A stretch of DNA of 64,000 nucleotides from Prochlorococcus marinus CUG1417. GTDB lineage: Bacteria > Cyanobacteriota > Cyanobacteriia > PCC-6307 > Cyanobiaceae. The notes under the pieces are model-generated. The model searched no databases, was not told the origin of the DNA, and saw only the letters and a list, made by a program, of their open reading frames with translations. A program made the translations under genes and the position numbers. The DNA lies in the NCBI RefSeq assembly GCF_017695975.1, contig NZ_JAAORN010000001.1:496001-560000 (forward strand), given 5' to 3'. The stretch's first letter is position 1; each line of letters opens with the position of its first letter. Positions 2,457 through 25,432 of the stretch are shown piece by piece.

Positions 2457-4220
2457 GTGACTCTTACTTCGAGATCCTTTTCAAAAGGTAGTTCAAAAAA
2501 TGAAAACCCAGTTTGGATAACTGGTGCAGATGCACTAATGGATTCTCTGAAAATTCATGGGGTAAAAGTTATATTTGGATATCCTGGAGGAGCCATACTA
2601 CCAATATATGACGCAGTTCATAAAGCAGAACAGGATGGTTGGTTAAAGCACTATATGGTTAGACATGAACAAGGAGGTTCTCATGCGGCTGATGGATATG
2701 CAAGATCTACGGGTGAAGTAGGAGTATGTTTTGGGACTTCAGGGCCAGGTGCAACAAATTTGGTTACTGGAATAGCAACTGCTCAAATGGATTCAGTCCC
2801 TCTTGTAGTTGTTACAGGTCAAGTTCCAAGACCTGCTATTGGGACTGATGCTTTCCAAGAAACTGATATTTTTGGTATAACTCTTCCAATTGTTAAACAC
2901 TCATGGGTAATAAGAGATCCTGCAGACATCGCAAAGGTTGTTTCAGAAGCTTTTTTTATTGCCTCTTCTGGTAGACCTGGCCCTGTGTTAATTGATATAC
3001 CCAAGGATGTAGGTCAAGAATTCTTTAATTACCAAAGAGTTTTACCCGGTGAGATTATTCCTAAGGGATTTAAAAGAAATGGCGATATAAATAATTGTGA
3101 TATCAAAAAAGCGATTAAATTGATAGAAGGGTCTGAAAGACCTCTTCTTTATGTCGGTGGTGGGGCAATATCTTCAGGAGCTCATGATGAAATAAGAATA
3201 TTGGCTAAGAATTATCAAATACCAGTAACTACAACATTAATGGGAAAGGGTGCTTTTGATGAAAAAGATAACTTATCGGTTGGAATGTTAGGTATGCATG
3301 GAACTGCTTACGCAAACTTTGCAGTTACAGAATGTGATCTTCTAGTAGCTATTGGAGCTAGATTTGATGATAGGGTGACAGGAAAATTAGATACTTTTGC
3401 TCCTAATGCTAAGGTCATTCATATAGATATTGATCCAGCAGAAGTTAATAAAAATAGGCGTGTAGATGTTGCAATTGTATCTGATGTTTCAAAAGCTGTT
3501 CGCAAAATTAATGAAAAATCTCTCAATAGCAAATTTGCTTTTAAGACTAAGAACTGGTTAGAAAAAATAGATTTTTGGAAAAATAAACACCCTTTGTATG
3601 AGCCACCTGAGAAAGGAGAAATTTATCCTCAGGAAGTTCTTTTAAAAGTAAGGGAACTTTCACCTGAAGCTTATATAACTACAGACGTTGGACAGCATCA
3701 GATGTGGGCTGCTCAATACCTTAGAAATTCTCCAAGAAAATGGATTAGTAGTGCAGGATTAGGAACTATGGGTTTTGGATTACCAGCGGCAATTGGAGTA
3801 AAGGCTGCCTTACCTAATTCAAATGTTATTTGTATCGCAGGAGATGCAAGTGTCTTAATGAATATTCAAGAATTAGGAACATTATCTCAATATGGATTAA
3901 AAGTAAAGTTGGTCATCATAAATAATCGCTGGCAAGGGATGGTAAGACAATGGCAGGAGAGTTTCTACGATGAAAGATATTCCTCATCAGATATGAGCTG
4001 CGGTGAACCTGATTTTGTGAAACTTGCGGAATCTTTTGGAGTTAAAGGTTACTTAATTTCTGAAAGAAAACATTTGCAGAATGAATTTAAAAATGCGCTT
4101 GAACATGATGGCCCTGCCTTGATTAATATCCTTGTAAGAAGAGGTGAAAATTGTTATCCAATGGTTCCTCCAGGTAAAAGTAATGCTCAAATGGTTGGAT
4201 ATGTTAATTGTGAAGATTAA
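2457..4220 (+). CDS. ilvB: Acetolactate synthase, large (catalytic) subunit
   Basis: Condenses two pyruvates to 2-acetolactate (or pyruvate with 2-oxobutyrate) in branched-chain amino acid synthesis; requires ThDP, FAD and Mg2+. The 587 residues show the full family order: an N-terminal ThDP-binding domain with the catalytic glutamate in [16 protein letters not shown], a central FAD-binding domain ([12 protein letters not shown]), and a C-terminal ThDP domain with GDAS...NN ([14 protein letters not shown]). The chosen start is a GTG at 2457; about 20 residues precede the conserved domain, so a slightly later start is possible. The regulatory small subunit ilvH is not in this window. Downstream is the small exported protein at 4288. 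Confidence 0.97.
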
Positions 4221-22724: not shown

Positions 22725-23309
22725 TTAATTTAAGCCAATTTCTTTTTTGAGGTAAGGTGACATAATTTTGGCAGCTTTACCCCTGCTTCCTAACTTACTT
22801 AGTTGTGATTGTGAGAGCTCTCCATAAACAGAGTTAGCTTCTTTTACCCAAAAAATAGATTCGAACTCCCCATTTGGATATTTTGGGTTATTAAGAATTT
22901 CTCCCCAGCATATTCCAGTTGTATCCTTAACTAAGTTTCCTGAGGGATCACATAAAACCATACAACTTATAAATCTTGCGCTCCTGTAAGGACTATCAGC
23001 AAGTTCATTAATTAATTTTTTAATTTTTTCAGCGTTGTTTTTGGCATATCGAGCAGAATATATACCTGGTCGTCCATCTAAGATATCCACTTCAAGCCCT
23101 GAATCGTCAGCTAATGCCCAAGTTTTTGTATCTAAAGCAGCTGCTTTTGCTTTTAAAAGTGCATTCTCAAAATATGTGTTTCCAGTCTCTTCGACATTTA
23201 AATACTCTGGTTGCTTCTGAACCTTTAAAGACAAAACATTAAGCATTTCCGAGATTTCAGAAACTTTGCTTTGGTTGCCACTAGCAATAGTTAGGACTGG
23301 AAGATTCAA
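22725..23309 (-). CDS. rdgB: Non-canonical purine NTP pyrophosphatase (RdgB/HAM1)
   Basis: Hydrolyses ITP, dITP and XTP to monophosphates, cleaning the nucleotide pool. 194 residues with LTIASGNQSKVSEI at the N-terminus (the T/S-x-N-x-x-K nucleotide motif), ALADDSGLEVDILDGRPGIYSARY in the middle, and the SKLGSRGKAA segment at the end. Start is a TTG at 23309. Its insertion between csoS1D and csoS1, facing the other way, is a known arrangement in this lineage; there is no functional tie to carboxysomes that I can see. Confidence 0.95.
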   Translation of the reverse strand: MNLPVLTIASGNQSKVSEISEMLNVLSLKVQKQPEYLNVEETGNTYFENALLKAKAAALDTKTWALADDSGLEVDILDGRPGIYSARYAKNNAEKIKKLINELADSPYRSARFISCMVLCDPSGNLVKDTTGICWGEILNNPKYPNGEFESIFWVKEANSVYGELSQSQLSKLGSRGKAAKIMSPYLKKEIGLN

Positions 23310-23355
23310 AATAACGAATAAATTTATTGAATTATTATCTTACTTCAAAGTTAGA

Positions 23356-23412
23356 TACGGAGACAGGAAAGGTTGAACATTCCACACCTGTGTAGACAGG
23401 GCCTGTCTCGTA
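23356..23412 (+). ncRNA. Candidate structured RNA with competing hairpins
   Basis: GAGACAGG (23360-23367) pairs with CCTGTCTC (23402-23409), extended by TAC/GTA past a bulged G: 11 pairs around a 34-base loop. A second AGACAGG at 23394-23400 can instead pair with the same right arm (six pairs, loop GGC), so the two folds exclude each other. ACAGG/CCTGT pairing with 23387-23391 is a third option. The stretch is about half G+C in a very AT-rich neighbourhood. A TATTAT box lies just upstream and a T6 run about 19 bases downstream. It could be an sRNA, a leader of csoS1, or a DNA operator; the strand is uncertain. Confidence 0.5.
23373..23386 (+). repeat. 14-base direct repeat, copy 1
   Basis: TTGAACATTCCACA inside the loop of the structured element, followed five bases on by GTAGACA. 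The same two blocks recur at 23604-23617 and 23628-23634. Confidence 0.75.
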
Positions 23413-23485
23413 CGGAAATAACATAATGTAAATTTTTTCTTAATACAACAGTATGTTTTGATGCACTAACTAATTTGCATAAGTA

Positions 23486-23515
23486 TTGACATATCAATAG
23501 TACCAAGGGTGATAA
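23486..23515 (+). promoter_or_regulatory. Candidate csoS1 operon promoter
   Basis: TTGACA (23486-23491), a perfect -35 consensus, and TGATAA (23510-23515) after an 18-base spacer. Transcription would begin near 23522. Confidence 0.45.
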
Positions 23516-23603
23516 GTTTAACTTATGAATGATAGAAAAAACATTAATGGAGATTTTGTCGAAAATGCTTGACTTATAAGTACTTAATGAAGCATTCTTC
23601 GAA

Positions 23604-23617
23604 TTGAACATTCCACA
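23604..23617 (+). repeat. 14-base direct repeat, copy 2, in the csoS1 leader
   Basis: TTGAACATTCCACA again, 231 bases from copy 1, followed after eleven bases by GTAGACA at 23628-23634, which abuts the csoS1 start codon at 23636. No Shine-Dalgarno sequence is present, so this conserved leader may itself matter for translation. Confidence 0.75.
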
Positions 23618-23635
23618 TTTAGTATTTAGTAGACA

Positions 23636-23947
23636 ATGGCTACAGAAACAATGGGTATCGCTCTCGGCATGATCGAGACACGCGGACTTGTACCTGCAAT
23701 CGAAGCAGCAGACGCAATGACAAAGGCTGCAGAAGTTCGCCTTATTGGTCGTGAATTCGTTGGTGGCGGTTATGTCACAGTATTAGTTAGAGGCGAAACA
23801 GGAGCAGTTAACGCAGCTGTAAGAGCTGGTGCTGATGCTTGTGAAAGAGTTGGTGACGGCTTAGTTGCAGCTCACATTATTGCTCGTCCTCATAGAGAAG
23901 TTGAACCTGCTCTAGGTAATGGTGAATTTCTTGGTCAAAAGGACTAA
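23636..23947 (+). CDS. csoS1: Major carboxysome shell protein CsoS1 (BMC hexamer)
   Basis: 103 residues of one BMC domain: GIALGMIETRGLVPAIEAADAM at the N-terminus, the VRLIGREFVGGGYVTVLVRG strand region with the pore loop, and AHIIARPHREVEPAL at the C-terminus. It forms the hexameric facets of the alpha-carboxysome. Codon use here is more GC-rich than the surroundings, as expected for a highly expressed gene. It leads the operon and is followed by cbbL after 69 bases; an imperfect hairpin at 23957-23976 lies in that gap. Confidence 0.98.
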   Translation: MATETMGIALGMIETRGLVPAIEAADAMTKAAEVRLIGREFVGGGYVTVLVRGETGAVNAAVRAGADACERVGDGLVAAHIIARPHREVEPALGNGEFLGQKD

Positions 23948-24016: not shown

Positions 24017-25432
24017 ATGAGTAAGAAGTATGATGCAGGGGTAAAGGAGTACAGAGATACCTACTGGACTCCTGAATATGTACCCCTAGACACCGATTTA
24101 CTAGCCTGTTTCAAATGTACAGGTCAAGAAGGTGTTCCAAGAGAAGAAGTTGCAGCAGCTGTTGCCGCTGAATCTTCAACAGGTACTTGGTCAACAGTTT
24201 GGTCCGAGTTACTGACAGATTTAGAATTTTATAAGGGACGTTGTTATCGAATCGAAGACGTTCCTGGAGATCCTGAAGCTTTTTATGCTTTTATTGCATA
24301 TCCTTTAGATCTTTTTGAAGAAGGTTCTATTACAAACGTATTAACATCTCTAGTAGGAAACGTTTTTGGATTTAAAGCTTTAAGACACTTACGTCTAGAA
24401 GATATTAGATTTCCAATCGCTTTCATCAAAACTTGCGGTGGTCCACCAAATGGAATCGTAGTTGAAAGAGATCGTTTAAACAAATACGGAAGACCTCTAC
24501 TTGGTTGTACCATTAAACCTAAATTAGGATTATCTGGTAAAAACTATGGTCGAGTTGTATATGAGTGTCTTAGAGGTGGTCTTGATTTAACGAAGGATGA
24601 TGAGAATATAAATTCTCAACCATTCCAGCGTTGGAGAGAAAGATTTGAGTTTGTTGCAGAAGCAGTTAAGCTTGCTCAGCAAGAAACTGGAGAAGTTAAA
24701 GGTCACTACCTAAACTGTACTGCCAACACTCCTGAAGAACTCTACGAAAGAGCTGAATTTGCAAAAGAGCTAGATATGCCAATCATCATGCATGATTATA
24801 TAACTGGCGGTTTTACTGCAAATACTGGATTAGCAAACTGGTGTCGTAAAAATGGCATGCTTCTACATATTCATAGAGCGATGCATGCTGTTATTGATAG
24901 ACATCCAAAACACGGTATCCATTTCAGGGTTCTAGCAAAATGTTTGAGACTCTCCGGAGGAGATCAATTACATACTGGAACTGTTGTTGGAAAACTAGAG
25001 GGTGATCGTCAAACAACTCTTGGTTATATTGATAACTTAAGAGAGTCATTTGTTCCCGAAGATAGATCAAGAGGTAACTTCTTTGATCAAGATTGGGGTT
25101 CAATGCCAGGAGTATTTGCTGTCGCATCAGGTGGTATTCATGTATGGCATATGCCTGCACTACTTGCGATTTTTGGAGATGATTCTTGTCTTCAGTTTGG
25201 TGGAGGAACACATGGCCATCCATGGGGTTCAGCTGCTGGAGCTGCAGCCAACAGAGTTGCTTTAGAAGCTTGTGTGAAAGCACGTAATGCTGGTCGCGAA
25301 ATCGAAAAAGAGAGTAGAGACATTCTTATGGAAGCTGCTAAACACAGTCCTGAACTAGCTATCGCTCTCGAAACTTGGAAGGAAATTAAGTTTGAATTTG
25401 ACACCGTCGACAAACTAGACGTTCAAGGTTAA
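24017..25432 (+). CDS. cbbL: RuBisCO large subunit (form IA)
   Basis: Carboxylates ribulose-1,5-bisphosphate. 471 residues: catalytic region [19 protein letters not shown] with the carbamylated lysine and its Mg2+ partners Asp and Glu, [17 protein letters not shown] with the first active-site lysine, loop 6 [10 protein letters not shown], and the final active-site residues in [12 protein letters not shown] and [11 protein letters not shown]. The sequence is of the alpha-cyanobacterial (proteobacteria-like) form packed in alpha-carboxysomes. It is followed by a hairpin and cbbS. Confidence 0.99.

Follow-up and report, generated by a model that had tools for sequence, protein, structure and literature searches.

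Much of the CO2 fixed in the sea is fixed by Prochlorococcus and Synechococcus, which have few protein regulators. To our knowledge, little is known about the post-transcriptional control of their alpha-carboxysome operon. Yfr10 pulls down csoS1 and csoS2 mRNAs in MED4 (PMC6778093), and in Synechocystis 6803 rbcL has an antisense RNA, RblR (PMC5306279). Rubisco and CCM genes are also controlled by RbcR (LysR-type), whose activation sites were located at about -90 (review, PMC13249358). Axmann et al. (2005) listed their cluster 87 as a 'region upstream of the rbcLS cluster containing conserved promoter' (PMC1242208). That cluster (MIT9313 and WH8102, z -4.24/-3.64) probably includes the region of the element described here, as an untested computational flag that names no RNA, strand or target.

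The present element resembled Yfr1 and Yfr10 in being a predicted short structured RNA with an unpaired conserved motif, and Yfr10 has been reported to target csoS1 mRNA. It differed from both in the conserved motif, in the complementarity to the csoS1 5' end and in its operon-adjacent position (Yfr10 at 346,661-346,738 in MED4; present element at 518,433-518,482). With RblR it would share RNA control of the Rubisco mRNA, which is predicted here; RblR, however, is cis-antisense and belongs to a beta-carboxysome organism, whereas the present RNA would be encoded outside its target, would pair over about 15 nt and occurs in alpha-carboxysome cyanobacteria. An RbcR-type palindrome at -87 was shared with the RbcR system, which acts at the DNA level and is a layer separate from the present RNA. 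None of the MED4 ncRNAs Yfr8-Yfr21 in Table 1 of Steglich et al. (2008) was near 518 kb, which fits the stated limits of that screen, in which very short RNAs or gene-adjacent RNAs on the same strand were missed or excluded (PMC2518516). The Rfam comparison suggested in the initial annotation gave no relevant match, with no family at the curated gathering score in the window region and four diverse loci (the window being the whole stretch of DNA analysed, 64,000 nucleotides). The predicted small-RNA gene is apparently unnamed so far.

Structure and conservation of the element

The element was located between rdgB and csoS1, with the following features:

22725 to 23309, minus strand: gene of an rdgB/HAM1-type NTP pyrophosphatase, as we take it to be from its sequence (ORF list); downstream same-strand neighbour of the predicted small RNA
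23350 to 23415, minus strand: predicted small RNA gene of about 60-65 nt, 5' end near 23413-23415 (covariation, promoter, covariance model)
23402 to 23412, minus strand: outer helix A, 5' arm UACGAGACAGG (compensatory changes in 5 of 5 counted pairs)
23356 to 23367, minus strand: outer helix A, 3' arm CCUGUCUCCGUA, with one bulged base (compensatory changes)
23387 to 23400, minus strand: inner hairpin B2, CCUGU-CUAC-ACAGG (pairs kept through double changes or minus-strand G-U)
23375 to 23386, minus strand: predicted targeting loop UGUGGAAUGUUC, complementary to csoS1 mRNA +1 to +12
23636 to 23947, plus strand: csoS1 (carboxysome shell), first gene of the predicted target operon (ORF list and 372 of 400 family genomes)
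24017 to 25432, plus strand: rbcL, next after csoS1

The initial annotation had reported AGACAGG at 23361-23367 and again at 23394-23400, CCTGTCT at 23402-23408, and an outer pairing that encloses a 34-base loop; these coordinates were exact, and the loop was as described. Folding of the lone element was better than that of shuffles, though by no overwhelming margin (z -2.0 on the minus strand, 9 of 200 shuffles as good; z -2.3 on the plus strand, 5 of 200), and it was because of the comparative evidence that the element was judged to be above chance.

In the rdgB-csoS1 intergenic region, aligned in 29 close relatives (MED4 and MIT9515 presumably among the relatives of the window's high-light Prochlorococcus genome), positions 23360-23399 were 98-99% identical among these 29 high-light loci; the neighbouring rdgB coding sequence reached 85-93%. 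Across picocyanobacteria (187 csoS1 upstream regions), the element was present in high-light, HNLC and low-light Prochlorococcus, in most marine Synechococcus and in one lake MAG. The arms of helix A changed from GAGACAGG/CCUGUCUC to GCAGCGGU/ACCGCUGC, GAAACGGG/CCCGUUUC, CGACACGC/GCGUGUUG and many more (some 50 different arm pairs family-wide), and were nearly always complementary. Best outer-arm complementarity averaged 20.6 over 79 distinct elements, against 13.6 +/- 2.9 with shuffled flanks. RNAalifold on a MAFFT alignment overlooked the outer helix, whose arms are too variable; a structure was specified manually instead and its pairs were counted. On 32 sequences, 83% of its cells were paired, 8 of 12 pairs had double changes, and the covariation score was 0.320 against 0.174 +/- 0.014 in shuffles (0 of 500), decreasing to 0.034-0.137 once partners were slid. 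The compensatory arm changes that the initial annotation had proposed looking for were thus present across relatives, and comparison showed the structured RNA element that it had placed in the carboxysome operon's control region to be real and conserved.

Throughout the family a GGG had two CCC stretches as possible partners, each excluding the other. Hairpin B2 and an alternative loop helix, B1, were mutually exclusive because both use the same GGG. Helix B1 was barely informative by covariation because it hardly varies; it was nearly invariant, with one compensatory change in a Synechococcus pair (L157, L163). The pair of identical left arms put forward at first as a switch was present in the high-light clade but not elsewhere, where the middle arm differs from the outer arm, and the switch was rejected as a general feature. 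From the initial alternative of a switching RNA or a small RNA, the second option was retained and the identical-arm switch was not.

A covariance model matched the window's genome on its minus strand (E 3.3e-13). With this model the element was recovered from 267 of the 400 family genomes and from 44 of the 59 genera, which underestimates the true number as the model scores weakly in g57. In a class-wide search of 242 genomes with the same model, all 21 matches were inside the picocyanobacterial family and none outside it. Viral copies were also considered: among 34 contigs with the 15-base core only L360 stood out, weakly, and the rest looked like chance. On that GC-rich contig from a viral collection, 3243-3291 of the minus strand gave a 27-bit match to the RNA model, which may be chance.

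Strand and promoter

A promoter-like minus-strand sequence of the form TTGNNN-N17-TANNTT preceded most elements and ended a few bases ahead of the stem. In the window its hexamers were:

23443 to 23448, minus strand: predicted small RNA promoter -35, TTGTAT (conserved TTGNNN, 17 nt ahead of the -10; TTGTGT in most high-light relatives)
23420 to 23425, minus strand: predicted small RNA promoter -10, TATGTT (70 of the 79 distinct elements have TANNNT here, as against 6 when the plus strand is read)

Of the 79 distinct elements, 55 had both hexamers on the minus strand and, by the same test, 3 had them on the plus strand, which went against the TATTAT box and T6 run taken at first as strand cues. 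When helix A was read on the minus strand, its non-Watson-Crick pairs were G-U in 28 cases and A-C in 14 (21 against 13 over distinct arm pairs), and the variants of hairpin B2 were G-U in the same reading. Fold energy left the strand undecided (40 against 36 of 79 elements, p = 0.44; equal mean energies). The sequence evidence gives high, although not complete, confidence that the structured RNA is read from the minus strand (roughly 23415 to 23350), in the direction leading away from csoS1, with a well-supported putative promoter there. This predicted -35/-10 pair ahead of the stem is the own promoter expected of a base-pairing sRNA gene. Plus-strand TGTTTTGATGCRCTNACY and CAG...TTTAACAGTC-type blocks at 23420-23500 were conserved across clades between this promoter and that of csoS1; they are possibly regulator sites for the sRNA promoter.

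A riboswitch or cis-acting leader of csoS1 was rejected, as promoter and wobble evidence favoured the minus strand and the csoS1 promoter is downstream of the element. A coding explanation was also rejected: neither an 86-aa minus-strand ORF nor an AUG within the loop gave conserved proteins. An intrinsic terminator was looked for in the window region and none was found, and for this reason a discrete short RNA is not proven against a leader of rdgB. The latter reading, in which the element is the cis-acting 5' leader of the minus-strand rdgB mRNA and pairing with csoS1 would couple both transcripts, draws on the shared strand and the same terminator result. A conserved CA(C/A)AAT -10-like box 25-57 nt past the stem in most elements, however, suggests that rdgB has a promoter of its own, and the loop was tied to the csoS1 5' end rather than to rdgB, which together make a leader unlikely.

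Complementarity to the csoS1 mRNA

The csoS1 loci had a promoter TTGAC-N17/18-CA(T/A/G)NNT followed after about 7 bases by GAACATTCC. In the window the relevant features were:

23512 to 23526, plus strand: RbcR-like palindrome ATAAG-N5-CTTAT, centre at -87 of the putative csoS1 start
23569 to 23598, plus strand: csoS1 promoter TTGACT-N18-CATTCT (TTGACT 23569-23574, CATTCT 23593-23598), kept in examined loci
23606 to 23620, plus strand: putative csoS1 mRNA 5' end GAACAUUCCACAUUU, also the predicted sRNA pairing site (position relative to the promoter)

The csoS1 promoter was therefore further downstream than the about 110 bases past the element at which it had been placed initially, and its sequence puts the start of the csoS1 mRNA at 23606, 30 nt ahead of the ATG. 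The RbcR-like palindrome was centred at -87 to -89 of this start in 181 of 186 loci and in 0 of 935 shuffles; as its position fits the about -90 of RbcR activation, it supports the start. Lying between two divergent promoters, the palindrome could serve both.

The initial annotation had missed the key feature of the locus, in that the csoS1 mRNA begins with a sequence that recurs in the loop of the element. On the minus strand the invariant loop core was GGAAUGUUC, which can pair with csoS1 +1 to +9. In the window the complementarity of UGUGGAAUGUUC reached +15 if two G-U pairs were allowed. It extended over at least 14 nt from +1 in 129 of 161 genomes having both sites, in all of which the pairing site kept a constant position relative to the csoS1 promoter. 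The loop and the csoS1 5' end of the window had a pairing energy of -22.0 kcal/mol, with very few stronger sites in the 64 kb. In 5 of 8 scanned Synechococcus genomes, those carrying the pair, the 12-mer GAACATTCCACC was found at the element and at csoS1 only.

Positions 1-5, 8 and 9 were paired in 44 of 44 distinct element/target pairs, and cognate pairs scored 14.07 of 15 against 13.68 for re-dealt pairs (0 of 2000); such counts are inflated by related genomes and represent few independent events, and the pattern was weighed above the probabilities. T7 was changed to C in both partners (GAACATCCC) in one Synechococcus clade (L141, L142, L144, L147, L162, L164, L165), and position 12 was A-U in the high-light clade and C-G elsewhere. 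Where the copies differed, 20 cases put RNA G opposite mRNA U (C in the element, T in the target) and 5 were the reverse. A few genomes (L067, L099, L167) had a loop mismatch. These coupled changes, the G-U drift and the cognate fit argue for direct pairing of the loop with the csoS1 mRNA, and a conserved unpaired seed that coevolves with its target is what a base-pairing sRNA would have.

That the element is instead a plus-strand leader or sRNA, sharing GAACAUUCC with the csoS1 5' end through a common protein or RNA that binds both, accords with helices of equal mean energy on either strand and with the identity of the shared motif on the plus strand. Both the promoter count on that strand (3 against 55 of 79) and the 20:5 excess toward the G-U tolerance of minus-strand RNA-mRNA pairing render this explanation very improbable.

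In g29 and g33 (L283-L297) the gene order was rdgB - element - csoS1D - csoS1, the gene being taken as csoS1D from its sequence; no csoS1D was present at this place in Prochlorococcus or marine Synechococcus. With csoS1D intervening, the element was about 1.7 kb from the csoS1 start and both copies were kept. The element remained on the rdgB side there, a further point for an rdgB leader. A cis-antisense RNA was rejected, the csoS1 transcript start being some 190 bp away from the element (1.7 kb in g29).

Ten genomes had rdgB-csoS1 synteny without the element (L145, L146, L150, L153, L156, L166, L168, L177, L193, L090), probably through about three independent losses. The csoS1 5' motif had drifted in 7 of them (GAACATCCTCC, GAACATTCCAAACC, GAACATTCAATC and others) and was intact in 3 (L150, L156, L166). 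These three are what would be expected if GAACATTCC were a DNA operator used twice by one transcription factor, with complementarity as a by-product, and the csoS1 region is rich in conserved DNA sites such as the palindrome at -87. One copy, however, invariably occupied the same loop of an RNA fold that covaries and has a promoter of its own, conservation extended asymmetrically to 12-16 nt with G-U-type drift, and the match persisted at 1.7 kb, so that an operator deserves very little credence.

Proposed mode of action

The element is likely a minus-strand gene for a base-pairing sRNA, with its own promoter, that acts on the 5' end of the csoS1-rbcL-rbcS mRNA. Comparison among genomes established the fold, the conservation, the complementarity and the co-change at the level of sequence; from these we infer expression of the RNA, both start sites, the pairing, and the sign and mechanism of regulation. 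The absence of Hfq from most Prochlorococcus (PMC2518516) was counted against an sRNA.

A sigma-70 promoter would start the short RNA at the base of the stem. The RNA would then fold so that helix A encloses hairpin B2 together with an unpaired, invariant segment for targeting, GGGUGGAAUGUUC (high-light clade: UGUGGAAUGUUC), which would pair with the first 12-16 nt of the csoS1-rbcL-rbcS mRNA, whose leader is predicted to be 30 nt. The GGG of the segment could be held by the hairpin CCC, by the post-loop CCC or by the mRNA, and with these three partners RNA folding may therefore gate target binding. A duplex over about half of the 30-nt leader, near the ribosome footprint, would hinder ribosome loading on csoS1 and so tune carboxysome and Rubisco output. 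Because of this extent and position of the pairing, translational repression is the first choice, at about even chances; shielding of the 5' end from RNase with stabilisation of the mRNA is the second choice and has a sizeable, lesser chance. An influence on the nascent transcript or on rdgB was ranked last.

High-light genomes had extra motif sites, in the sigA leader and opposite an ABC transporter coding sequence; the latter is explained by that coding sequence. In high-light Prochlorococcus, TGAACATTCCAC occurred 302 nt upstream of the rpoD/sigA start, directly after a -10-like TTAGTAT box:

472599 to 472610 of C1 in the window's genome, minus strand: TGAACATTCCAC at the sigA leader (also in L218 and L303)

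The motif was absent from the other genera sampled, and the rpoD leader was rejected as a family-wide second target; within the high-light clade it says little because the whole leader is conserved there. It is doubtful that the sRNA gained a second target in the principal sigma factor mRNA leader in high-light Prochlorococcus; if true, one small RNA would tie the CO2-fixing operon to the general transcription of the cell.

The predicted sRNA probably controls the output of the ocean's main CO2-fixing machine in Prochlorococcus and its relatives. One conserved RNA gene with one clear predicted site at the start of the operon mRNA makes it a testable candidate for a group-wide regulator.
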